Shown in pieces: positions 35,901 to 46,661 of a stretch of 64,000 nucleotides of DNA. Position 1 is the stretch's first letter. Each line of letters starts with the position of its first letter. The DNA comes from Flavobacteriia bacterium (GTDB lineage: Bacteria > Bacteroidota > Bacteroidia > Flavobacteriales_D > Crocinitomicaceae): NCBI GenBank assembly GCA_016183815.1, contig JACPDW010000007.1, forward strand, positions 248,001 to 312,000. The letters are read 5' to 3'. A program made the position numbers and the translations under genes. The notes beneath the pieces were generated by a model. That model ran no database searches, was not told the origin of the DNA, and saw nothing but the letters and a program-made list of their open reading frames with translations.

Positions 35901-37182
35901 CTTTTATCCTTTGTGGAACAGAATTATGCAAAATCCAAAAGAAAACAAATGGCAAAAAGAATACAGAATAAAAAATGGTTTAGGAGAATTTGTTTATGTT
36001 GAAGAGATTGCCCATATTTTCAGAGATGAACAAGGTAAACCAATACGAATGATAGGAGTATTAAGAGACATAAATGAAACCAAAGAATTACAAAAGTTGT
36101 TAGATACTGCATCAAAATTAGCAATGGTAGGAGGATGTGAAATAGATTTCATCAACGAAAATCACCATTGGACGGAGATTACTAAAGAAATTTTTGATGT
36201 ATCTTCTGATTTTGTTCCGAGAGTTGAAAAGATTTTTTCTTTTTTTGAAGGAGAGTACTTAGAAACGTTAAAAAAAGCGTTTAATAACGCAAAAAACAAA
36301 GGAAAAGACTTTGATTTAGAGTTAAAAATTATAACTGAGAAAAACAATCATAAATGGGTACGTATTATTGGAAACACAGAAATGGTTAAAGGTAAGTGTG
36401 TTAAAATTCTTGGAAGTTTTCAAGACATTACAGTGCTTAAAACAAACGAATATGCTCTCACCATGTTGCATGATAAACTAGAAAAATATACACAAAGATT
36501 AGAAAACTCTAACAAAGAATTAGAACAATTTGCATATGTGGCTTCGCATGATTTACAAGAACCCTTAAGAATGGTTACTGGATTTTTAACTCAATTGGAG
36601 AAAAAATATTTTGATTTATTAGATGATAAAGCCAAACAGTACATCAATTTTGCCGTTGATGGAGCGAAAAGAATGAGAGAAATGATTTTGGGTTTGTTGG
36701 AGTATTCAAGATTAACAAAACGTAATGAAGATAAAGAGCCAATAGATATAAATGAAATTGTAATCAGTGTTTTAAGTTTGAACCATAAATTGATTAAAGA
36801 AAAAAGAGCAAAAATCATTTATAAAAAACTACCTATTATTGTTTCATACAAAACCCCAATGATGCAAGTCTTTAAAAATTTGATTGAAAATGCTTTAAAA
36901 TATTCAAAAGATGAGGTCGATTGTATAATTGAAATAAGTGCTGATGAGACAGAAAAAGAATTTATTTTAAGCATTAAAGACAACGGAATAGGAATTGATA
37001 AACAATATCACGACAAAGTGTTTTTGTTGTTTCAGCGAACCTATCTTATAGGGAATAATAAAGGAATGGGAATGGGACTTTCAATTGTAAAAAGAAGTGT
37101 TGAAAATATGGGGGGAAATATCCTTTTATTTTCAGAATTAGGCGAAGGAAGTACTTTTCAAATTCATCTACCAAAAGCTTAA
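32995..37182 (+). CDS. Hybrid histidine kinase: receiver, multiple PAS domains, HisKA, HATPase
   Basis: A 1395-residue, apparently soluble kinase. An N-terminal receiver domain (about 1-125, Asp56 in LLLDVQMPEMDG) is followed by about eight PAS/PAC units, several marked by a closing D-I-T-E-K-type sequence. The phosphoacceptor is His1185 in ASHDLQEPLRM, and a HATPase domain with DNGIGID and GMGMGLS ends the protein. The repeats at about 660-785 and 785-905 are near copies of each other, implying recent internal duplication. It starts 4 bp after cheR, in the same operon. Confidence 0.93.
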   Translation: MNPITSLPILIVDDLLVNLISLSKNLQAKGFETENCLSANEAIKKLKEKDYGLLLLDVQMPEMDGFELATFLKNDEKTKNIPIIFITALYPDKEMIMKGLDIGACDFLNKPFDIDILVLKIKNLLYLSCIENELQVTKNELLKKNILLEKKAKRSNFSFEALFYNTRDLSVIVNKEREILAVNDRFVNFDRIESKTLIGKKIEDLPFTFEITNYPLKINECFTLAFLDIVNKEEHVIVKISNTAEGDIYYEINFIKIQDDTEEDLMIIVLRNITKRIAREKELKDHQSLLEMAEKNASLGSWSIDLPEFKIKWSNEMFRLFEFDKKKNEPSHEEFMNKIDINSRDIIQKNIELIYKENVCPGNIIVQTNIELMKHKYILFNPNCEKNSEGKIIRMYGTCLDITEQILTENKLKETKESLENILKIANSGIVLLSKEKTFLYTNPYMKKMLECEDEEIIGKSYLDFILPSEKQKIEELIQGVEEGNQTELDIERILISKSGKKIITHLKCSYVFDESNKIKYVLGIYTDITEKKTNELELEKQRKLFKRILDHFPLGIYISNKKHELEYVNPIAKKLFGKNNSRFCYEYFHDKKQACEFCKNKQVFNGESVTWHWSTPDNKKHFELVDLPLTNIDGSLSKLEIIIDITEKKVFEQKLIESEERFNKLLQEGSDLIRILDEDGKYKYLSPNHTNVLGYEKDELINKIGFDYVHPEDKQAVYSLFQSLKTKKRTKSVPYRILHKDGTWKWVHSIGTNLKDDPIIKGYIINTSEISDLIEAQEQIKLSEYRFKTMISEGSDMIQVFNEKGTCVYASPNHKTILGYSDREVLKNKLSQMVHPNDYAILSENLETVIRKKIAKTKPFRVRHKNGTYRWLQSVGTNLIHDEIIKGVVVNTTDITDLITYQEQLQMSNKRYETVNSVTKDAIYEWDMIKDIYYWGESFYRVFHFPKSKKVFKVKDWEGFMNPDDVELFYPLWNRIMQNPKENKWQKEYRIKNGLGEFVYVEEIAHIFRDEQGKPIRMIGVLRDINETKELQKLLDTASKLAMVGGCEIDFINENHHWTEITKEIFDVSSDFVPRVEKIFSFFEGEYLETLKKAFNNAKNKGKDFDLELKIITEKNNHKWVRIIGNTEMVKGKCVKILGSFQDITVLKTNEYALTMLHDKLEKYTQRLENSNKELEQFAYVASHDLQEPLRMVTGFLTQLEKKYFDLLDDKAKQYINFAVDGAKRMREMILGLLEYSRLTKRNEDKEPIDINEIVISVLSLNHKLIKEKRAKIIYKKLPIIVSYKTPMMQVFKNLIENALKYSKDEVDCIIEISADETEKEFILSIKDNGIGIDKQYHDKVFLLFQRTYLIGNNKGMGMGLSIVKRSVENMGGNILLFSELGEGSTFQIHLPKA

Positions 37183-37317
37183 TAATCAATGTTATATAAA
37201 TACATTGATTAATTTTTATACGTAGAAATACTTGGTTTTTGAAAAAAAATCTTTTTTATTGTTTGAATTAAATTAATTTTAATTGAATAATTTTTGAATT
37301 TGTAATAGATAATCAAA

Positions 37318-37968
37318 ATGAAAAAAATTCATATTTTATTGGCGGATGATCATTCAATGATTAGAAAAGGTTTAAAACTAATGTTGGCACAACAAAATAC
37401 TTTTGAACCCATTTTTTATGATGCTGAAAATGGAGCTGAAGCATTACAACGTATAAAAGAGGAGGAAATTGATGTTTTACTTTTAGACATTACTTTGCCT
37501 GAAGTTGATGGGATTAGTGTTTTAAGAAAATTAAAATCCATACAAAGTAAATTGCCTGTTATTATCTTAACCATGCACAAAGACAAAAATATTGTCAAAC
37601 AAGTTTTGGAATTAGGTGCATTAGGATATATGTTGAAAAATTCTGGTTTAGAAGAACTCACCAAAGCCATCACAACAGTTCTGCGAGGAGAACGCTTTTT
37701 TAGCAATGAAATAGCACAAATGATTTTTCATGAAAATGAACAAATAAAGCAACAAAAAAGTGCAATAGAATTTGAAAGCAATTTGTCTAAAAGAGAAAAA
37801 CAAATTTTATCTATGATTGTAAAAGAAATGACAAGTCAAGACATAGCAGAAGAAATCAATGTAAGTAAAAGAACTGTTGAAGGACATCGAAAAAACATTA
37901 TGGACAAATTAGGCATTAAATCGACTGTTGGATTGGTAAAATATGCTTTAAAAAACGGTTTTGAGTAA
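37318..37968 (+). CDS. NarL/FixJ-family response regulator
   Basis: A 216-residue transcription regulator. The receiver domain has DDH near residue 10, the phospho-acceptor in LLLDITLPEVDG and Lys in MLKNSG. The LuxR-type helix-turn-helix near 150-210 shows LSKREKQIL, QDIAEEINVSKRTVEGHRKNI and MDKLGIKS. It lies 135 bp after the multi-PAS kinase with its own AT-rich leader. Confidence 0.95.
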   Translation: MKKIHILLADDHSMIRKGLKLMLAQQNTFEPIFYDAENGAEALQRIKEEEIDVLLLDITLPEVDGISVLRKLKSIQSKLPVIILTMHKDKNIVKQVLELGALGYMLKNSGLEELTKAITTVLRGERFFSNEIAQMIFHENEQIKQQKSAIEFESNLSKREKQILSMIVKEMTSQDIAEEINVSKRTVEGHRKNIMDKLGIKSTVGLVKYALKNGFE

Positions 37969-38371
37969 ATGAGATTAATTGATAAAATCTGATAGAAATA
38001 CCACTTTTGTTTTCCCACAGATGTTCGCAGAAAAATTTAATCAACAAATTTTTACCTTATTTACACCAATCTAATCCTTGTAAACCTGTGTAATCCATGT
38101 CAAAATATAGCCACGAATTTCACGAATGAACACGGAATTAAAGAAAATCTATTTTAAGTGTGATAGATACAAATGAGTGTAAATCTGTGTAATCTGTGGC
38201 AAAATATAGCCACGAATTTCACTAATGAACACGGAATTAAAGAAAATCTATTTTAAGTGTGATAGATACAAATAAGTGTCAATCTGTGTAATCTGTGACA
38301 AAATTTAGCCACGAATTTCATGAGACAACGAGAACATGTTTCACGAATTTCATGAGACAACGAGAACATGT
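37969..38371. other. Intergenic region filled by the left 99-bp repeat array
   Basis: No gene. From about 38020 to 38107 there is a degraded repeat copy (for example CTGTGTAATCCATGTCAAAATA near 38086-38107), then the array described at 38108-38373. Confidence 0.65.
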
Positions 38372-38373
38372 TT
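38108..38373. repeat. Left array: two 99-bp tandem units plus a truncated unit
   Basis: Units begin with TAGCCACGAATTTCA at 38108, 38207 and 38306, exactly 99 bp apart. The third is cut short after 15 bases and joined to GAGACAACGAGAACATGTTT; the 32 bp at 38310-38341 are then duplicated at 38342-38373, ending on the stop codon of the GxxExxY gene. Bases 38207-38341 are identical to 38934-39068. Confidence 0.9.
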
Positions 38374-38746
38374 AATAAACAACTCTTTTGTATTTTAAAC
38401 TTTGTTCACCAAAATTAACTAGTAAAGCCAATTTGTTATTTGACACTTTTAAATAATTAATCGTTTGTGCTAAAAATTCATCTCTTAAATTTGAAACAGC
38501 TTTAATTTCCACAATAACATTGTTAAACACAACAAAATCGGCAAAAAAAGAATGCTCTAAAATGACATTTTTATATCGCACTTGATATTGTTTTTCTCTT
38601 ACAAAAGGTATGTTCGCTTTTTCAAACTCATAAGCTAATGCATCTTTGTAAATAATTTCTAAAAATCCTGAACCTAAGTTGTTGTGTACTTCAAAACATT
38701 TGTTGATAATTTGATAACTTTCTTTTGATTGAATTAATTCCCTCAT
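38372..38746 (-). CDS. GxxExxY-family protein (PD-(D/E)XK-like)
   Basis: A 124-residue protein of the GxxExxY family: Gly27-Glu30-Tyr33 in GFLEIIY. Asp70 (FFADFVV) and Glu80-Ile-Lys82 (VEIKAV) give the D...ExK arrangement of a PD-(D/E)XK nuclease fold, with Gln in AQTINYLK downstream. The family is widespread, often multi-copy, and has no proven function. Here the gene is framed exactly by two matching arrays of 99-bp repeats in the same orientation, and its stop codon touches the left array. Nuclease activity is a fold-based inference. Confidence 0.9.
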   Translation of the reverse strand: MRELIQSKESYQIINKCFEVHNNLGSGFLEIIYKDALAYEFEKANIPFVREKQYQVRYKNVILEHSFFADFVVFNNVIVEIKAVSNLRDEFLAQTINYLKVSNNKLALLVNFGEQSLKYKRVVY

Positions 38747-39223
38747 ATTTTTATATTTTTAAAGATCTCTTTATCTAAGTTACAAAAAATATTTTAAATA
38801 ATTCCCATTATTTTACATAGTAGCATTAAAAAATTTAGCCACGAATTTCACTAATGAACACGGATCAAAGAAAATCTATTTTAAGTGTGATAGATACAAA
38901 TGAGTGTAAATCTGTGTAATCTGTGGAAAAATATAGCCACGAATTTCACTAATGAACACGGAATTAAAGAAAATCTATTTTAAGTGTGATAGATACAAAT
39001 AAGTGTCAATCTGTGTAATCTGTGACAAAATTTAGCCACGAATTTCATGAGACAACGAGAACATGTTTTACAACTAATTGTTGATTTTTGCAAGATAAAT
39101 AAGCAGGATTGCTAAAATGTAGTGTTCTTTTGACCATAAAGCATAATTATGGGGTTTGTTATGGTCTTTAACGATTTAATTTTGAAAAGGTTATACTTTT
39201 ACATGTTTATTCAATAAGTACTC
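38747..39223. other. Intergenic region with the right 99-bp repeat array
   Basis: 477 bp without a gene. It holds the right repeat array (38836-39068) and, nearer the ATPase, an inverted repeat GACCATAA (39132-39139)/TTATGGTC (39159-39166) that may end the ATPase transcript. Confidence 0.6.
38836..39068. repeat. Right array: two tandem units plus a truncated unit
   Basis: Units begin at 38836 (98 bp, one indel), 38934 (99 bp) and 39033 (36 bp, ending in GAGACAACGAGAACATGTTT). Same order and orientation as the left array; the last 135 bp are identical to 38207-38341, 727 bp away. Confidence 0.9.
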
Positions 39224-40366
39224 TTATTTATATTGTAACCAACGAGAAAAAAAGCAATTGTAAACTACATAATTTTTTCTGTCATTTTCTTGTTCAACAT
39301 ATATCATTTCTGTTTTCAATAAAGCATTTAATGATCTTTTAACAGTTGAAGCTGCGCCTAAATCATACTTTTTAAGAAAAGCAGCAGATGTGATTTGTTC
39401 AACTTTATCTTCTTTAGCAATGGCTTTAAGTAGTTTCCATTGACTTGGAGTTAACATGTTTCGATATTGAAAATAGATTTCTTCATTAAGTTTCAATATT
39501 TCCATGGCTTGTTTATGGGCAATATTGAGTGTAATTTTTTTTCCTCCAAATAAATAAATGCGATGACATAAAAATTGGGTATAAAATGTATGTGTTTTAG
39601 TAAACTCAAATATAAAGTCTAAAGCATCCTCTGTTATTGTTTTTTTATTTTTTTCAAAATGATAGATGATAAATTTTTGATATGCTTCTCTTTCTATTTT
39701 TTTTAAGAATAACGCTTGTGTACTTTGATAAAAAGGTCGTTTGTAACTATAAAACATTTCCGTTAATAGGTGTGGACTACTTCCACTAAAAACGAAGTGA
39801 ACATTTTTAAGCGTTTGAATTTTCGTTCTCAAAATTGCTTCCATGTTTTTTTCAGGATAAGAGGCAATTTGTTGGAATTCATCAATTAATACTAATATAG
39901 GTTGTTCTTGTGCTTCTAAAAAATTAAACAAATCCATTAAGGTGTTTTCAAATTGTTTGTCTCTACTATAGTCTAAACTCAATTCAGGTAAACCACTCAA
40001 TTCATTGATGCTCATTATTGGACGTAACTTTTTAATAACTTGAAATGCTTTTTTCCAAAATGGGTCTTTTTCTGGAAATGCATTTATTATTCCCGTAGCA
40101 ATTTGGTTGGTAAAATCCCGTAAATTCGTTGTACCATACATGTCCACATATATTCCTATCCCAATTTTTTTAGATTTAAATTGATGTAAAACATGATGTA
40201 ATAAACCCGTTTTCCCCAATCTTCTAATAGAAATTAGGCTGGTATTTAATCCGTTTTGGGCATATTTAATAATGTTTTCAGTTTCTATTTCCCGATTACA
40301 AAAATATTCCGGACTCACATAATCCTTTAATAAAAAGGGATTTTCGATTTTTTTCACACCTAACAT
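39224..40366 (-). CDS. Archaeal-type AAA/STAND ATPase with C-terminal winged helix
   Basis: A 380-residue ATPase. The P-loop is in IRRLGKTGLL (about residues 49-58), the form seen in the archaeal-ATPase group (PF01637-like). Walker B is LVLIDEFQQIA, and a sensor-like FSGSSPHLL follows. The last 80 residues (LTPSQWKLLKAIAKED, SAAFLKKYDLGAASTVKRSLNALL) look like a winged-helix DNA-binding domain. Such ATPases are frequent in accessory islands and their role is usually unknown. Its promoter carries 14-bp iterons, so DNA binding by its own tail is a testable idea. Confidence 0.85.
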   Translation of the reverse strand: MLGVKKIENPFLLKDYVSPEYFCNREIETENIIKYAQNGLNTSLISIRRLGKTGLLHHVLHQFKSKKIGIGIYVDMYGTTNLRDFTNQIATGIINAFPEKDPFWKKAFQVIKKLRPIMSINELSGLPELSLDYSRDKQFENTLMDLFNFLEAQEQPILVLIDEFQQIASYPEKNMEAILRTKIQTLKNVHFVFSGSSPHLLTEMFYSYKRPFYQSTQALFLKKIEREAYQKFIIYHFEKNKKTITEDALDFIFEFTKTHTFYTQFLCHRIYLFGGKKITLNIAHKQAMEILKLNEEIYFQYRNMLTPSQWKLLKAIAKEDKVEQITSAAFLKKYDLGAASTVKRSLNALLKTEMIYVEQENDRKNYVVYNCFFSRWLQYK

Positions 40367-40381
40367 AGTTGTATTTTTTCA

Positions 40382-40438
40382 CAAATATACAACAAAATGC
40401 GTAACGCAAAACAAATTACGCAAAATGCGTAACGCAAT
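40382..40438 (-). promoter_or_regulatory. ATPase promoter (TTTG-N17-TATATTTG) overlapped by three 14-bp iterons
   Basis: On the minus strand the -33 TTTG (40407-40410) and the -7 TATATTTG (40382-40389) are 17 bp apart, a full consensus promoter 16 bp before the ATG. TGCGTAACGCA occurs at 40398-40408 and 40426-40436, with a degraded copy ending in TTACGCA at 40412-40422; the centres are exactly 14 bp apart. The first copy covers the spacer and -33 element, so a bound protein should block transcription. Confidence 0.8.
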
Positions 40439-40450
40439 GTGTGAAATTAA

Positions 40451-40497
40451 TATTCTCCGACATGGGTGATTTTGCCTAGGCGGTTAAGACGGACTTT
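40451..40497 (-). repeat. Protein-end remnant A (47-bp direct repeat)
   Basis: 47 bp, 41 identical to 41310-41356. Read on the minus strand it ends an open frame with KVRLNRLGKITHVGEY and a stop at 40447-40449. The frame is open for only about 22 codons, so this is a gene remnant, not a gene. The parent family is not recognised. Confidence 0.7.
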
Positions 40498-40550
40498 GTA
40501 ATGAATTTTTTGATTTTAGTTGTTTGCAAATAGAAGACTTTCGAAAAAAG

Positions 40551-41069
40551 TCATTCTTTTTTTTTGAAAAGAGCTTTTATTTTGTGAATGATACTTGTGT
40601 TTTTACTGAAAATATGTATTTTTTGTAATTCTTCTACATCAGCCAAATCTTTTAACCTTCCAGTTGACATTTTATTTGTTACTAAATCGTGTAAATGAAT
40701 AAAATTCACAGATAATTTTTCACTATAATCAAACGGTATTACTTGTTTTTTTTCTTCTTCGTATATTAAACCTGAAATGGAATTTAAAACATCTACTACA
40801 AACAATCCTTCTCCTACTTTAAAACTGAAAGGTTTCGAAAAATCTAAATTTTCAATTTGCAAAAGACTCTCTGAATCGTAAGCTAAAGAGGCAAAAGCAT
40901 GGATAATCTTTTCTTTATTTGTATATGTGGGATTAACCCAAATATCCAAATCACCCGTTGATCTTCCATAGCCATGAAAAATAACTGCATAACCACCAAC
41001 AATCATATAGTCAACCTCAAAACGGTTAAAAGCATTCAATATTTCTTCGAAATTTTCAGCTAAATTCAT
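40551..41069 (-). CDS. Nucleotidyltransferase-fold protein (DUF6036-like), putative toxin-antitoxin component
   Basis: 172 residues from the ATG at 41069, whose ATGA overlaps the TGA of the small upstream gene. The nucleotidyltransferase core is visible as VGGYAVIFHGYGRSTGDLDIWV (a GG/GS motif and an acidic D-L-D pair) with a further Asp in FVVDVLN. RLKDLADVEEL near the end is typical of this family. The frame is open to 41108, but the overlap decides the shorter start. It is probably one half of a two-gene module; which protein would be the toxin cannot be read. Confidence 0.8.
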   Translation of the reverse strand: MNLAENFEEILNAFNRFEVDYMIVGGYAVIFHGYGRSTGDLDIWVNPTYTNKEKIIHAFASLAYDSESLLQIENLDFSKPFSFKVGEGLFVVDVLNSISGLIYEEEKKQVIPFDYSEKLSVNFIHLHDLVTNKMSTGRLKDLADVEELQKIHIFSKNTSIIHKIKALFKKKE

Positions 41070-41269
41070 GGGTTTACAATCGTGATTTTTTTCACCAAAG
41101 TTTTCCAAGTCCCATCAGGAAGCAAGTGTTCTTTGTAAAGCATTTTTCGTAAAACTTCTAAGTTGGATAAACGCTCTCTATAACTTAATTGAGTTTGTTT
41201 GCTAGCTTCAAATCGTTTTTCATCTTCTAATGAAGTAAATACCTGAATTTTTTTTGACTTACTTTCCAT
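41066..41269 (-). CDS. Small protein coupled to the nucleotidyltransferase
   Basis: A 67-residue, charged, helical protein (RFEASKQTQLSYRERLSNLEVLRKML). I do not recognise a named domain. It precedes the nucleotidyltransferase with a 4-bp ATGA overlap, so both are made from one mRNA driven by the promoter at 41290-41319. Small partners in this position are common for this nucleotidyltransferase group, which suggests an antitoxin- or adaptor-like role. Confidence 0.7.
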   Translation of the reverse strand: MESKSKKIQVFTSLEDEKRFEASKQTQLSYRERLSNLEVLRKMLYKEHLLPDGTWKTLVKKITIVNP

Positions 41270-42275: not shown

Positions 42276-45200
42276 TTATTTTTCTTTCACCAAATGGATA
42301 TACCCTTGTAATCTTCCTCCTTCACCAAAAACATCTACATAATCTACGATATAAAAATAAACGCCATCGTGTATTTCTTTTCCATTGCTTTTTCCGTCCC
42401 AGCCAGGTGAATAACCGTCTGCCTCATAAATGGAATTACCCCATCTATTGGTAATTGTTACGTGATACTCTTTGATATTAAATGCCTTTACTGGACCAAA
42501 AAAATCATTTTTACCATCGTTATCGGGAGTAAAAACATTCGGCATTTCTATAGCAATACAACCTTCATTATTTTCAGGTTGGGCAACGGAAACACTTATG
42601 TTGGATTGACAACCTGCTTGATCAGTAACGTTAACAGAATACGTCCCAATACTTAATCCTATTTGAGAACTGTCAGTTGAACCATTGTTCCATATATAAG
42701 TGTAAGGAGGACTACTTCCAATGGCAGAAACAGAAACACTTCCTTCCGATTTTCCTTCACATGTAGGAGTAGAATTAGCACTTAAAGAAACAGGTGAACT
42801 GATTTGTGAAACATCAACATTAGTTGTCTTTACACATCCGTTTGCATCAGTAACAGTAACTGAATATGACCCTGCTTGTAATTGTGTAAGATTTTGTGTT
42901 GTTTCTCCATTTGACCATAAATAAGTAAAAGTTGGTGTACCACCTAATACTTGAAGATTTATCCAAGCAATGGAATCTCCAAAACACATCAAGTCGCTAA
43001 CCGTTGTATTTAATAACAATGCACTATCTGGCTGAGTTATTGTTACAGAAATGGTTTGGGTACATAAGTTTGCGTCCGTTAAAGTCAATTGATAATTACC
43101 TTCAGGTATTGAAGTTAAATCTTCACTAATTGAATTATTACTCCAAAGAAAATCATAAGGAATTGTACCTCCTGAACTTGTAACCTGAATAGAAGCTGTA
43201 GATTCACCATAACAATTCACATCGGTATGTGTTTCAGTCAAAACAAGAGCATCAGGAGTGTCAATGGTAAAGCTTTCTGTTAATTCACAAGCGTTGTCAT
43301 CGGTAATAGTAACGGAATATGTTCCTGCAGCAAGTGAGTTTATGTCTTGTGTTGTTGGACCGTTATCCCATTGATAGTCAAATGTTCCTGTTCCTCCAGC
43401 TACTTCAATATCAATAGAAGCATCTTGATCACCAAAACATTGTAAAGTCGTATTATTAGATGAGGTGATATAAATTAAAGTATCAGGTTGAGTAATTATA
43501 AAAGATTTAAAACCACCACAGGAATTTCCGTCTATAACATTTACCCAATATTCACCTGCACTTAAATTATTGGCATCTTCGTTGTTCGTGTTATTGCTCC
43601 AATCAAATAAGTATGGGGAAAGCCCATTTAGTAGAGTAATGTTTATACTGCCAGTAGTAGCACCATAACAAAGCACATCAGTAATCACTTCTGTCATTTG
43701 TATTGCGTCTGGATCAGATAATGAGGTGTAAATGGTATCTATACAGCCATTATAATCTGTGACTTCACAAAAATAATTTCCTGCATATAAAGCATTTATA
43801 TCTTCAGTTGTTTCACCGTTATTCCAAAGATAAGAATAATTTGGAGTTCCACCTGTAACTTGCATTTCTATTGAACCTTGACTTCCTTGTTGACAAACAG
43901 GATTGATGTTATTGAAGATAACCGTTAAAGAGTCTGGTTGTGAGATGCTTACATCGAAGTTTTGGGGACATAAATTGTTATCACTAACAGTAACGGTATA
44001 ATCCCCAGCGGATAGATTAGAGAGGTCTTCTGTTTCTTCTCCTCCAGACCATAAAAATGTATAAGGTTCAATCCCTCCATTAATACTTAAATCAATAAAT
44101 GAGTTGTTGTCTCCATAACACAACAAGGTGCCAGTTTGAGCTGTAATAATCATCGAGGCATCAGGCTGTGTAACAGTGAATGATTGATAAACACTACAGG
44201 AATTGATATCCGTAACCGTATCTGTATAAACTCCTGCTGGTATTGATATTAAATCTTCAATAAGCTCATTATTTGACCACAAAAAAGAGTAAGGTAAAGT
44301 TCCTCCACTTATCGTTACATCAATTTCACCTGTTGAGTTTCCATAACACAAGACATTTGTAACAGTTCCTGTAATTGTAATAGCTTCTGGTTGTGTGAGA
44401 ACAATTGTGTCCCATGCTTTACATCCAGTATCGTCTGTTAGTTCTACAACATATTCTCCCGCCGTCAAAGAATTAATATCAGGAGTAGAAATTCCTGTAT
44501 TCAACCAACTATAACCAATAGGAGATACACCTCCATTTACACTAACGGTAGCACTTCCATCATTTTCTCCGAAACAACTGATGTTTTGACCATTGTAGTT
44601 TGAGGTAATACTTGCATTTGCTTCAAAAACAGGAGGTTCTGAGATTGAAAAAGACTCTGTATAAGTACATCCATACGTATCAACAACACTTACATCATAC
44701 GACCCAGCGAAGAGACTTCCTGCGAGTGAATCTAAATCATTATTTGACCATTGATAAGTAAAGGGTGCATTTCCGTTACCTTGTACACGAATAAAACCAC
44801 CACCATAATGGTAACAAGAATCATTTTGACTTTCTAAGAGTGTAATGCTTGGATTTTCACTAACAAAAACAGGAGCTAAAGTATCGTCAGTGCAAGATTG
44901 TCCGTTATAAGTTACAAGTAATTGATATTCACCTGAATGGATTAGCTGTGCATCTGTTATTTCTGGATTAGAAATCGTAGAAGAAAAAGAATTTGGACCG
45001 ACCCATTGATACGTTAAAAAAGTGGAAGATGGAAAGGAAAATTGAAGGGTTTCACCTACACAAATGCTATCCGTATAATTAATTTCAAGTGTTGGACAAG
45101 AATTAACGTTTATAGTTACAATTCCACTTTCAGGCGAAGGACAGCCATTTTGATCCAATTGGTCTGACAAACCATTATTTCCATTAGTAATCCCTGAAAT

Positions 45201-46661
45201 TTGACCTGTTCCGAAAACATAAGCTTTGTTTTCTAAAGTTGTTCCACATTGCCAACTAGGACAATCATCGAGTAGTTGAACTCTAAATTTTAATACAGTA
45301 CTGTCCGCTCCATTTGAAGAATTTATTACATTCCCACCAACTGTTCCATTTGCACTTGTTCCAATTCTTGCTTTAACCAAGTGACCAGAAGATAAATATT
45401 CCGCTTGATCACTATCTAACACGTCAGTTTTTACACCAGAATTTGGCCCATAAAGTATTTCCAATGAGCCAGGAACAAAAGACAAACGATTGTCTAAAGT
45501 GTCGGTTAGATAAGTCCCTGTTGAAACATCAGAACCAATGTTTTTTACTGAAACTGTATATTCTAAAATATCACCTGGTACAACTGTACCTCCGTTTATA
45601 TCGACGTACGAAACACCAGCACGCAAATCAGGCTCATATCCATCAATTGCTGAAGTAATAACACTTGTCAAAACAGTTTCAGATTGAGTAGAGACACGAA
45701 TAGAGGCACTGGTTGCTGCATTTCCAATAAAATTAAAGGTAGAATTGTCTGGAGAATAGATGTTTGCATCATGTCCTAAGTTGTTGTTATAACTAGGATT
45801 TCTAAAAGCGGTTAACGAACCATTTCGTGAAATAGTACTATTAAAAGCATTATCGGATTGATGTAAAGCATCACTAATATTAACAAACGAGCCGGCACCG
45901 TTAAACTCTAATTGATCTCCTGTTTGAGCACGATCTCCATCATGTGCAACAACACCTAACTCAAAATTAACTGCTCCACTTGGAGGTGTTAAAAATCCAC
46001 TTAAATCAATATTTACTGTACCTGCTCCAGAACTTACATTAGCTAAACCATCAAAAACGGTTATATTTTTCATGGATTCGTAAATGTTTTGATAAACAAC
46101 AACCATTGTCCATGCTCCAAAGGTATTTGAACCAGTTTCAGTAACTACATTAGCAATTCGGAATGTCGAATTAATAGGGTTTGCTTGTACGATGTTTGTG
46201 ACGTCTTTAAAACAAAAATAAGCCGTTTTACCTATGTCATTGTCAAAAAGATTATCAGCGGTTACCTCCATATAACTACCATTATTTACACTAATTTTTA
46301 CTTTGTTTCTGTTGATAAAATTGGGCGTGTTGTCTGGTAAATTATTAAGTAAGCCATTCCAATATAAACCTGCCCATATAATTTCACTGCAATTGGGTAA
46401 AGCTAATTGGTCAGAGGATGACATATAGGTTGAGCCATCGTTGTCAATATCTACAAAATCCATAGAATAATTATTATTGTCACCACTACCATTTGGAGGC
46501 ATTTCATTATTAGCACTACAATCACAACCTACAGAGGTGTTGGATAAAAAAATCAACCCACCTTTTAAATTAGTTTGATATCGTATGGAAAAAGGGTCTA
46601 TAATTTGAGTAAAAACAAAAGAAGAACAAAATAGAACTAAAACAAAGCTTTTTATTTTCAT
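42276..46661 (-). CDS. SprB-repeat adhesin with T9SS type B sorting domain
   Basis: A 1461-residue secreted protein. Signal peptide; a beta-rich N-terminal region of about 340 residues; a DUF11-like domain (DLRAGVSYVDINGGTVVPGDILEYTV); then about ten SprB-type repeats of 70-80 residues, each with a C-x-G start, a Y-x-(Y/F)-x-W-S/N-N core and AG-x-Y-x-V-x-V-D. The last 85 residues (NVFTPDNDGKNDFF, NRWG, GWDGKSNGKEIHDGVYFY) are the gliding-motility/T9SS type B C-terminal domain. It is probably a surface adhesin used in attachment or gliding, and stands alone in its operon. Confidence 0.93.
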   Translation of the reverse strand: MKIKSFVLVLFCSSFVFTQIIDPFSIRYQTNLKGGLIFLSNTSVGCDCSANNEMPPNGSGDNNNYSMDFVDIDNDGSTYMSSSDQLALPNCSEIIWAGLYWNGLLNNLPDNTPNFINRNKVKISVNNGSYMEVTADNLFDNDIGKTAYFCFKDVTNIVQANPINSTFRIANVVTETGSNTFGAWTMVVVYQNIYESMKNITVFDGLANVSSGAGTVNIDLSGFLTPPSGAVNFELGVVAHDGDRAQTGDQLEFNGAGSFVNISDALHQSDNAFNSTISRNGSLTAFRNPSYNNNLGHDANIYSPDNSTFNFIGNAATSASIRVSTQSETVLTSVITSAIDGYEPDLRAGVSYVDINGGTVVPGDILEYTVSVKNIGSDVSTGTYLTDTLDNRLSFVPGSLEILYGPNSGVKTDVLDSDQAEYLSSGHLVKARIGTSANGTVGGNVINSSNGADSTVLKFRVQLLDDCPSWQCGTTLENKAYVFGTGQISGITNGNNGLSDQLDQNGCPSPESGIVTINVNSCPTLEINYTDSICVGETLQFSFPSSTFLTYQWVGPNSFSSTISNPEITDAQLIHSGEYQLLVTYNGQSCTDDTLAPVFVSENPSITLLESQNDSCYHYGGGFIRVQGNGNAPFTYQWSNNDLDSLAGSLFAGSYDVSVVDTYGCTYTESFSISEPPVFEANASITSNYNGQNISCFGENDGSATVSVNGGVSPIGYSWLNTGISTPDINSLTAGEYVVELTDDTGCKAWDTIVLTQPEAITITGTVTNVLCYGNSTGEIDVTISGGTLPYSFLWSNNELIEDLISIPAGVYTDTVTDINSCSVYQSFTVTQPDASMIITAQTGTLLCYGDNNSFIDLSINGGIEPYTFLWSGGEETEDLSNLSAGDYTVTVSDNNLCPQNFDVSISQPDSLTVIFNNINPVCQQGSQGSIEMQVTGGTPNYSYLWNNGETTEDINALYAGNYFCEVTDYNGCIDTIYTSLSDPDAIQMTEVITDVLCYGATTGSINITLLNGLSPYLFDWSNNTNNEDANNLSAGEYWVNVIDGNSCGGFKSFIITQPDTLIYITSSNNTTLQCFGDQDASIDIEVAGGTGTFDYQWDNGPTTQDINSLAAGTYSVTITDDNACELTESFTIDTPDALVLTETHTDVNCYGESTASIQVTSSGGTIPYDFLWSNNSISEDLTSIPEGNYQLTLTDANLCTQTISVTITQPDSALLLNTTVSDLMCFGDSIAWINLQVLGGTPTFTYLWSNGETTQNLTQLQAGSYSVTVTDANGCVKTTNVDVSQISSPVSLSANSTPTCEGKSEGSVSVSAIGSSPPYTYIWNNGSTDSSQIGLSIGTYSVNVTDQAGCQSNISVSVAQPENNEGCIAIEMPNVFTPDNDGKNDFFGPVKAFNIKEYHVTITNRWGNSIYEADGYSPGWDGKSNGKEIHDGVYFYIVDYVDVFGEGGRLQGYIHLVKEK

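Follow-up and report, generated by a model that had tools for sequence, protein, structure and literature searches.

A GxxExxY gene in the window (the whole stretch of 64,000 nucleotides analysed here) lies between two repeat arrays, and its arrangement proves to be a local form of a widespread one. We document the linkage of GxxExxY genes to arrays of helically phased words, the covariation of word and protein subfamily, the joint insertion of gene and arrays, the insertion of gene-less (solo) arrays, and purifying selection on the protein. At odds of roughly two in three, we consider that the gene and its flanking arrays form a small mobile unit whose nuclease acts on its own arrays; the binding and cutting are inferred.

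Two arrays enclose the window gene

The features of the locus, in order of position, are as follows.

38015..38107, no strand assigned: decayed repeat unit (CCACAGATGTTCGCAGA ... AACCTGTGTAATCCATG) at the outer end of the left array, recognized by reading the sequence; the family D1 register reaches 38038 at 75% identity
38108..38206, plus strand: left array unit 1, 99 bp, with arms at 38111-38133 (plus) and 38177-38199 (minus)
38207..38305, plus strand: left array unit 2, 99 bp
38306..38341, plus strand: left array unit 3, truncated, one arm start followed by GAGACAACGAGAACATGTTT
38342..38373, plus strand: second copy of the truncated end of the left array, overlapping the stop codon of the gene by 2 bp
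38372-38746, minus strand: GxxExxY gene, 124 aa, protein cluster 6 (GxGFLEIIYKDAL)
38836..38933, plus strand: right array unit 1, 98 bp, with arms at 38839-38861 (plus) and 38904-38926 (minus)
38934..39032, plus strand: right array unit 2, 99 bp, with the same sequence as 38207-38305
39033..39068, plus strand: right array unit 3, truncated, with the same sequence as 38306-38341

The sequence-only reading had described a GxxExxY gene with an array on either side, both oriented the same way and each made of two 99-bp units plus a truncated third. The arrangement itself is confirmed from the sequence. Some details can be added: the first right unit measures 98 bp, and the left side carries an extra truncated end and a decayed unit. 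The 135 bp reported as common to both arrays (38207-38341 and 38934-39068) are identical at 135/135 positions, and the match runs 6 bp further to the left to give 141 bp. Within the left array, units 38108-38206 and 38207-38305 are alike at 94/99 positions. The tag GAGACAACGAGAACATGTTT is found three times, at 38322-38341, 38354-38373 and 39049-39068, and nowhere else in the window; the left array does reach the stop codon, as had been claimed, through the copy that begins at 38354 and ends at 38373. Where each array ends on its inner side, the tag stands in place of the usual continuation of the unit.

Each 99-bp unit is an inverted pair of arms, CCACGAATTTCACKAATGAACACGG on the left and CCACAGATTACACAGATTTACACTC on the other strand on the right. 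Both arms are rows of the 7-letter word CACnnAT, with spacers of 2 and 3 letters. Alignment of the upstream to the downstream flank of the window gene scored 204, whereas the maximum was 13 for 24 genes encoding ParE (a control family of small accessory genes from the same set of relatives) and the 95th percentile of shuffled flanks was 12. The window arrangement is therefore not due to chance. The full 99-bp unit occurs only at this place in the window genome, where single arms of its type are also found elsewhere. The LuxR gene beside the window copy was found in relatives, but no empty site for this copy could be identified there, because synteny to the right of LuxR is not conserved.

Two further loci in the window were noted. 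At 40551-41108, a nucleotidyltransferase-like gene (DUF6036) has on each side a copy of a coding fragment that ends in KVRLN(H/R)LGKI.HVGEY-stop, and no phased words are present; these repeats are probably a gene-fragment duplication. On the minus strand, 42276-46661 encodes a 1461-aa protein with many repeats, which we take to be of the type of Bacteroidota gliding-motility adhesins.

GxxExxY is a predicted RecB/Cas4-like nuclease

The window protein matched PF13366 (E = 2e-36, 125.2 bits against a cut-off of 22) and TIGR04256, the GxxExxY profile (E = 7e-41, 139.3 bits against a cut-off of 35). No transposase domain was detected in the protein. Residues G27, E30, Y33, D70, E80, K82, Q94 and Y98 are all intact. 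Among GxxExxY homologues, Y33, E80, K82, Y98, N111 and F112 are invariant and G27, E30, D70 and Q94 almost invariant, with D70 kept in at least 90%. The conserved motif set of the family, D, ExK and QxxxY, is that of RecB-like nucleases.

An AlphaFold2 model of the window protein, built with 70 homologues, had a pLDDT of 96.9. Its top structural match was SSO0001, a Cas4 protein (Z 10.3, 98 residues, 3.2 A), and restriction enzymes, Hjc and lambda-type exonucleases scored lower (Z 6-8). The Cas4 iron-sulphur cysteines are absent from the window protein, which has a single cysteine and no room for an iron-sulphur cluster. The profile matches, fold match and intact motifs bear out the initial description of a PD-(D/E)XK-like gene. 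We predict that GxxExxY is a RecB/Cas4-like PD-(D/E)XK nuclease, an activity inferred from fold and motifs. Orthologous GxxExxY pairs have dN/dS values of 0.055 and 0.16, and these low values imply that the protein stays functional, under purifying selection.

Matching arrays flank most GxxExxY genes

We gathered GxxExxY loci from relatives, named GTDB genomes, further Bacteroidota and Planctomycetota genomes, and plasmid records. The genomes used are drafts and MAGs, and the Pseudomonadota are barely sampled. Exact 6-mer recurrence gave a visible but weak enrichment and was replaced by flank alignment and word profiles. Association was measured by aligning the 300 bp upstream to the 300 bp downstream of each gene, with a threshold score of at least 16. 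Of 83 GxxExxY genes, 73% reached this threshold; among the controls it was reached by 10.7% of 121 other ORFs in those loci, by 2.2% of mismatched flanks and by 0% of shuffled sequences. Matching repeats were found on both sides of 67% of 177 GxxExxY genes from 78 genomes, and 58% of a further 33 loci, mostly from Planctomycetota, had matching flanks. Among the Flavobacteriales relatives, 43/61 GxxExxY genes had matching flanks versus 0/24 ParE genes. By eye, word arrays stand on both sides of most GxxExxY genes, no more than about 200 bp away; about a third of the genes have no detectable matching flanks. The association of gene and repeats would have been refuted had GxxExxY genes usually lacked them, and this is not the case.

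The 99-bp unit had been proposed as the repeat of the system, but it does not extend beyond this locus. What is general and conserved is a word of 7-8 letters repeated every 8-10 bp, mostly in inverted arrangement. Self-matches in the flanks exceed those in far flanks 2.6-, 2.8- and 3.7-fold at lags 8, 9 and 10, with a second peak at lags 19-20; the two ranges correspond to one and two turns of DNA. In most loci the arrays end in GCCAC/ACCAC...GTGGC/GTGGT. The exact 99-bp unit is confined to a single place in its genome, as it would be had a local tandem duplication in one draft assembly, or chance, produced the arrangement. This explanation can practically be discarded, since it is refuted by the recurrence of the same architecture in 78 genomes from several phyla, including complete plasmid records.

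Several loci depart from the usual arrangement. The GxxExxY frame reads into the array in L281 and L282, where the N-terminal extensions MNREHEINHRDTETQRQ and GCHHGDTENTERP are translated words. Phased word arrays also flank an AlbA_2-like gene (L044 3467-4862) and a DinD-like gene (L079 4783-5620), the latter apparently in a restriction-modification region, so genes other than GxxExxY may ride between arrays. On a Sphingomonas parapaucimobilis plasmid (L275 1480-1908), GxxExxY lies between fabD and fabG with hardly any room for arrays, and this copy is possibly domesticated.

GxxExxY genes are often multi-copy and widespread, as the sequence-only reading had held. Roughly one in two of the Bacteroidota and Planctomycetota genomes sampled carries them, with up to 17 copies in a genome, and many copies are partial or stop-containing pseudogenes. 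Plasmid-borne spread was considered and rejected, because only 8 of 72,556 plasmid records carry GxxExxY and all 8 are typed as non-mobilizable. A phage origin was likewise rejected, with 0 matches in 50,697 phage records.

The patchy presence of the gene (32/59 relatives, 74/148 Bacteroidota genomes) and its RecB-like motifs, including QxxxY, are compatible with a defence nuclease directed against invading DNA, for which the phased words would mark self DNA as Chi does for RecBCD. We regard this as very improbable. No PADLOC anti-phage defence model matched, each genome has only a few arrays, clustered around the gene and not spread out like Chi sites, and the many pseudogenes and high copy numbers are a better fit to a selfish element.

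The word follows the protein subfamily

Protein clusters have their own words. Proteins of the GPGLLESAYE type are flanked by CGCAAAG or CACAGAG, those of the GFLEIVYKDAL type by CACGAATT or CACAGATT, those of the GYGFLEKVYENAL type by nnCnGATT or CACGAATGAA, those of the GNGFQEVIYQRAL type by nATGATT with a TCTGAAC end, and those of the GPGLLESVYHKCL type by ACTAAG or CTTAG. The window genome alone has four GxxExxY copies with four different words.

We compared flank-word similarity with protein identity between genomes and obtained a Mantel r of 0.29 (permutation sd 0.014). This is far above a paralogue-swap null in which flanks were exchanged within one genome (mean 0.112, sd 0.016, maximum 0.168 in 1000). 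The covariation holds between phyla: for 48 genes outside Bacteroidota, mostly from Planctomycetota, against 159 Bacteroidota genes, r was 0.187 (p <= 2e-4). When two protein types are tabulated against two word classes, the ratio of AG to AT words is 64:5 for the GPGL type and 4:36 for the GFLE type (p = 6e-19), and the 17 genomes with both protein types contain 47 concordant and 6 discordant cases. We note that the covariation counts take each gene as an independent case, which does not hold for related insertions; host relatedness does not affect the paralogue-swap and within-genome results. The word classes were set after viewing the data, and they play no part in the flank-alignment and k-mer tests. 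The word tracks the protein subfamily and not the genome, and the proposed link between repeat and gene is upheld both inside genomes and across phyla.

Gene and arrays insert together, and arrays insert alone

Comparison with relatives revealed junctions that are closed where the unit is absent. In G001 and G004, a GxxExxY unit splits two rhomboid genes that abut in G002, G003, G005, G009 and G037 (0 to about 12 bp apart, no array). Another unit lies between purA-like and relA/spoT genes in G001 and G004, and the corresponding gap in G002, G003 and G005 is 32-139 bp, also without an array. As relatives without the unit have no array at either junction, the genes did not insert into existing arrays there. 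Gene and arrays insert jointly. In Planctomycetota, inspection by eye placed GxxExxY directly behind a leuD-like gene.

Nearly identical tandem duplicates of the whole gene-plus-array unit were found in L206, L182 and L058, and can be explained by recombination between the enclosing direct repeats. These were the only near-identical copies seen; none was seen at unlinked sites in one genome. No clear target-site duplication was established, a possible ATGAA repeat being found at the pdxJ junction only, and the exact ends of the unit are undefined.

Gene-less arrays were located with a pattern of three phased AT words, which occurs at 12 sites in the window genome (6 of them at this element), 20 in G002, 15 in G020 and 22 in G054; a reversed control pattern gave about zero sites. 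Most of the solo sites that we inspected lie between genes and consist of inverted pairs spanning about 55-140 bp. One of them, in G054, separates pdxJ from a hydrolase gene, two genes that overlap by 4 bp in most relatives with a readable junction. Gene-less arrays also move, as this insertion demonstrates. Solo copies keep the spacers of the resident gene's arrays in 13/13 cases in G020 (spacers 1,3), 17/19 in G054 (2,2) and 6/6 in the window genome (2,3), although one of the last may have matched by chance within coding sequence.

Within arms, the information content of the free word letters exceeds that of the spacer letters (2.0 vs 0.9 bits in G054, 1.36 vs 0.78 in G020, 1.11 vs 0.85 in G002). 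This better conservation suggests that the words are contacted, for which there are no binding data, and not that the arms pair with each other. We also considered a hairpin as the main recognized feature and rejected it: although the G002 solo copies fold strongly (z -5 to -9.7), the window units fold no better than shuffles (z -1.3 and +0.3). Because the window units are poor hairpins, recognition of phased double-stranded words is the more likely.

Repeats of AT words are also numerous in G043, G018 and G002, which lack the cognate gene type. A genome-level correlation between the presence of a gene type and the number of solo arrays was unconvincing, as arrays persist after the cognate gene is lost, and the comparison of spacers took its place. 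Repeats unlinked to GxxExxY would have counted against the sequence-only reading. They are not unlinked, the word type being tied to the gene, but copies do persist in genomes without it. In G043, a genome without any GxxExxY match, tandem CCACAGATAACACAGATTAACAC units at 69-bp spacing (L336, G043:C46:165400-168000) form an orphan repeat family.

That arrays are more widespread than their cognate genes, and that other accessory genes are occasionally found between them, is what one would expect if the arrays were independent MITE- or REP-like repeats serving as safe insertion sites in which GxxExxY genes accumulate. We find this improbable. The word tracks the subfamily across phyla and even between paralogues that share a genome, the rhomboid and purA-relA junctions are free of arrays in congeners without the unit, and ParE genes of the same genomes are never flanked.

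Somewhat more room remains for the possibility, still unlikely in our judgement, that the arrays are GxxExxY binding sites with a regulatory or genome-maintenance role (operator, repair control or processing) and that another enzyme or host recombination moves the unit. Words and spacings that track the protein are expected of any DNA-binding partner, the protein is under purifying selection, and DNA ends are the substrate of the RecB/Cas4 fold family in repair and in the processing of prespacers. Yet no other enzyme gene recurs inside the units, and gene-less arrays insert at new sites, which a pure regulator would not need. The claim that gene and repeats are one mobile unit is supported: joint insertion is observed at two junctions and a gene-less array at a third, but that the protein moves or cuts the repeats is only inferred.

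A model for the proposed mobile unit

If GxxExxY is the nuclease that acts on its arrays, it would bind its own word array as an oligomer, with one protomer or contact per word and per helical turn, and would cut at or near that array. The cut array, sometimes together with the gene, may then be relocated to, or copied into, another intergenic position, perhaps through host repair. Each subfamily would read its own word, which would allow several units to occupy one genome without cross-talk. Dispersed gene-less arrays would be the non-autonomous offspring of the unit, as REP sequences are to RAYT transposases.

Relation to known systems

REP and REPIN sequences together with RAYT (TnpA-REP) transposases form 'REPtrons', in which a gene is flanked by repeats that are also dispersed as intergenic palindromes (PMC3733652, PMC8266576). 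The GxxExxY unit is similar in having one dedicated gene between repeats, and palindromic repeat copies that are scattered between genes elsewhere and tied to a resident gene. Gene and repeat types are also paired, several types occur per genome, and repeat-bearing genomes without the gene exist. It differs in its enzyme, a PD-(D/E)XK nuclease instead of an HUH Y1 transposase, and in its repeat, a word with a helical phasing of 8-10 bp, often with several words per arm and without a conserved GTAG tag. No HUH Y1 tyrosine transposase is encoded in the unit, whose only gene is that of the PD-(D/E)XK protein. The array ends examined share no GTAG tag of the kind (GTAG or CGTC) that REP sequences carry on a 20-40-bp palindrome. 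The earlier comparison with REP sequences and RAYTs, with a nuclease-type protein in place of the transposase, was apt in its logic, though without HUH transposase and GTAG tag the unit is not a REPtron.

Insertion sequences, MITEs and other transposons with terminal inverted repeats resemble the unit in their inverted ends, their small non-autonomous copies and their insertion between genes that are closed in relatives. Occupied and empty sites could be compared at three junctions in relatives, and no empty site was found for the window copy. The unit has no known transposase domain, its sole gene encodes a 124-aa nuclease core, its ends are multi-word phased arrays, and a clear target duplication has not been established.

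Cas4/RecB nucleases (SSO0001, lambda exonuclease, AddB) share with GxxExxY the predicted fold and the D, ExK and QxxxY motifs, but GxxExxY has only about 124 residues, is linked to phased repeats and has no helicase or Cas1/Cas2 partner. A repeat array beside a Cas4-like nuclease gene recalls CRISPR. Here, however, repeats lie on both sides of the gene and as dispersed solo copies, the sequence between the arms is itself repeated so that there are no unique spacers, and neither a cas operon nor any cas gene is found among the neighbours.

No Rfam family matched window positions 37000-40500 at E <= 0.5. In the open literature we found no description of such a system, GxxExxY being named only in passing, and none of five repeat words was found in open papers; subscription papers and preprints were outside these searches.

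We consider the GxxExxY unit a new variant of repeat-plus-enzyme systems; were the nuclease to move DNA unaided, the unit would form a class to itself. Only tentatively do we go further and propose a separate class of prokaryotic mobile DNA, in which a stand-alone RecB/Cas4-like nuclease with a subfamily-specific protein-DNA code spreads itself and gene-less arrays without a known transposase or recombinase, and of which periodic repeats in several phyla are the products.

For the GxxExxY family, which has no assigned function, the word-matched repeat provides a testable substrate. The link explains many periodic intergenic repeats in Bacteroidota and Planctomycetota, and it provides a natural code for protein-DNA recognition that exists in many variants. 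Should the nuclease drive the movement by itself, this would be a mechanism of mobility outside the HUH, DDE, tyrosine and serine enzymes.
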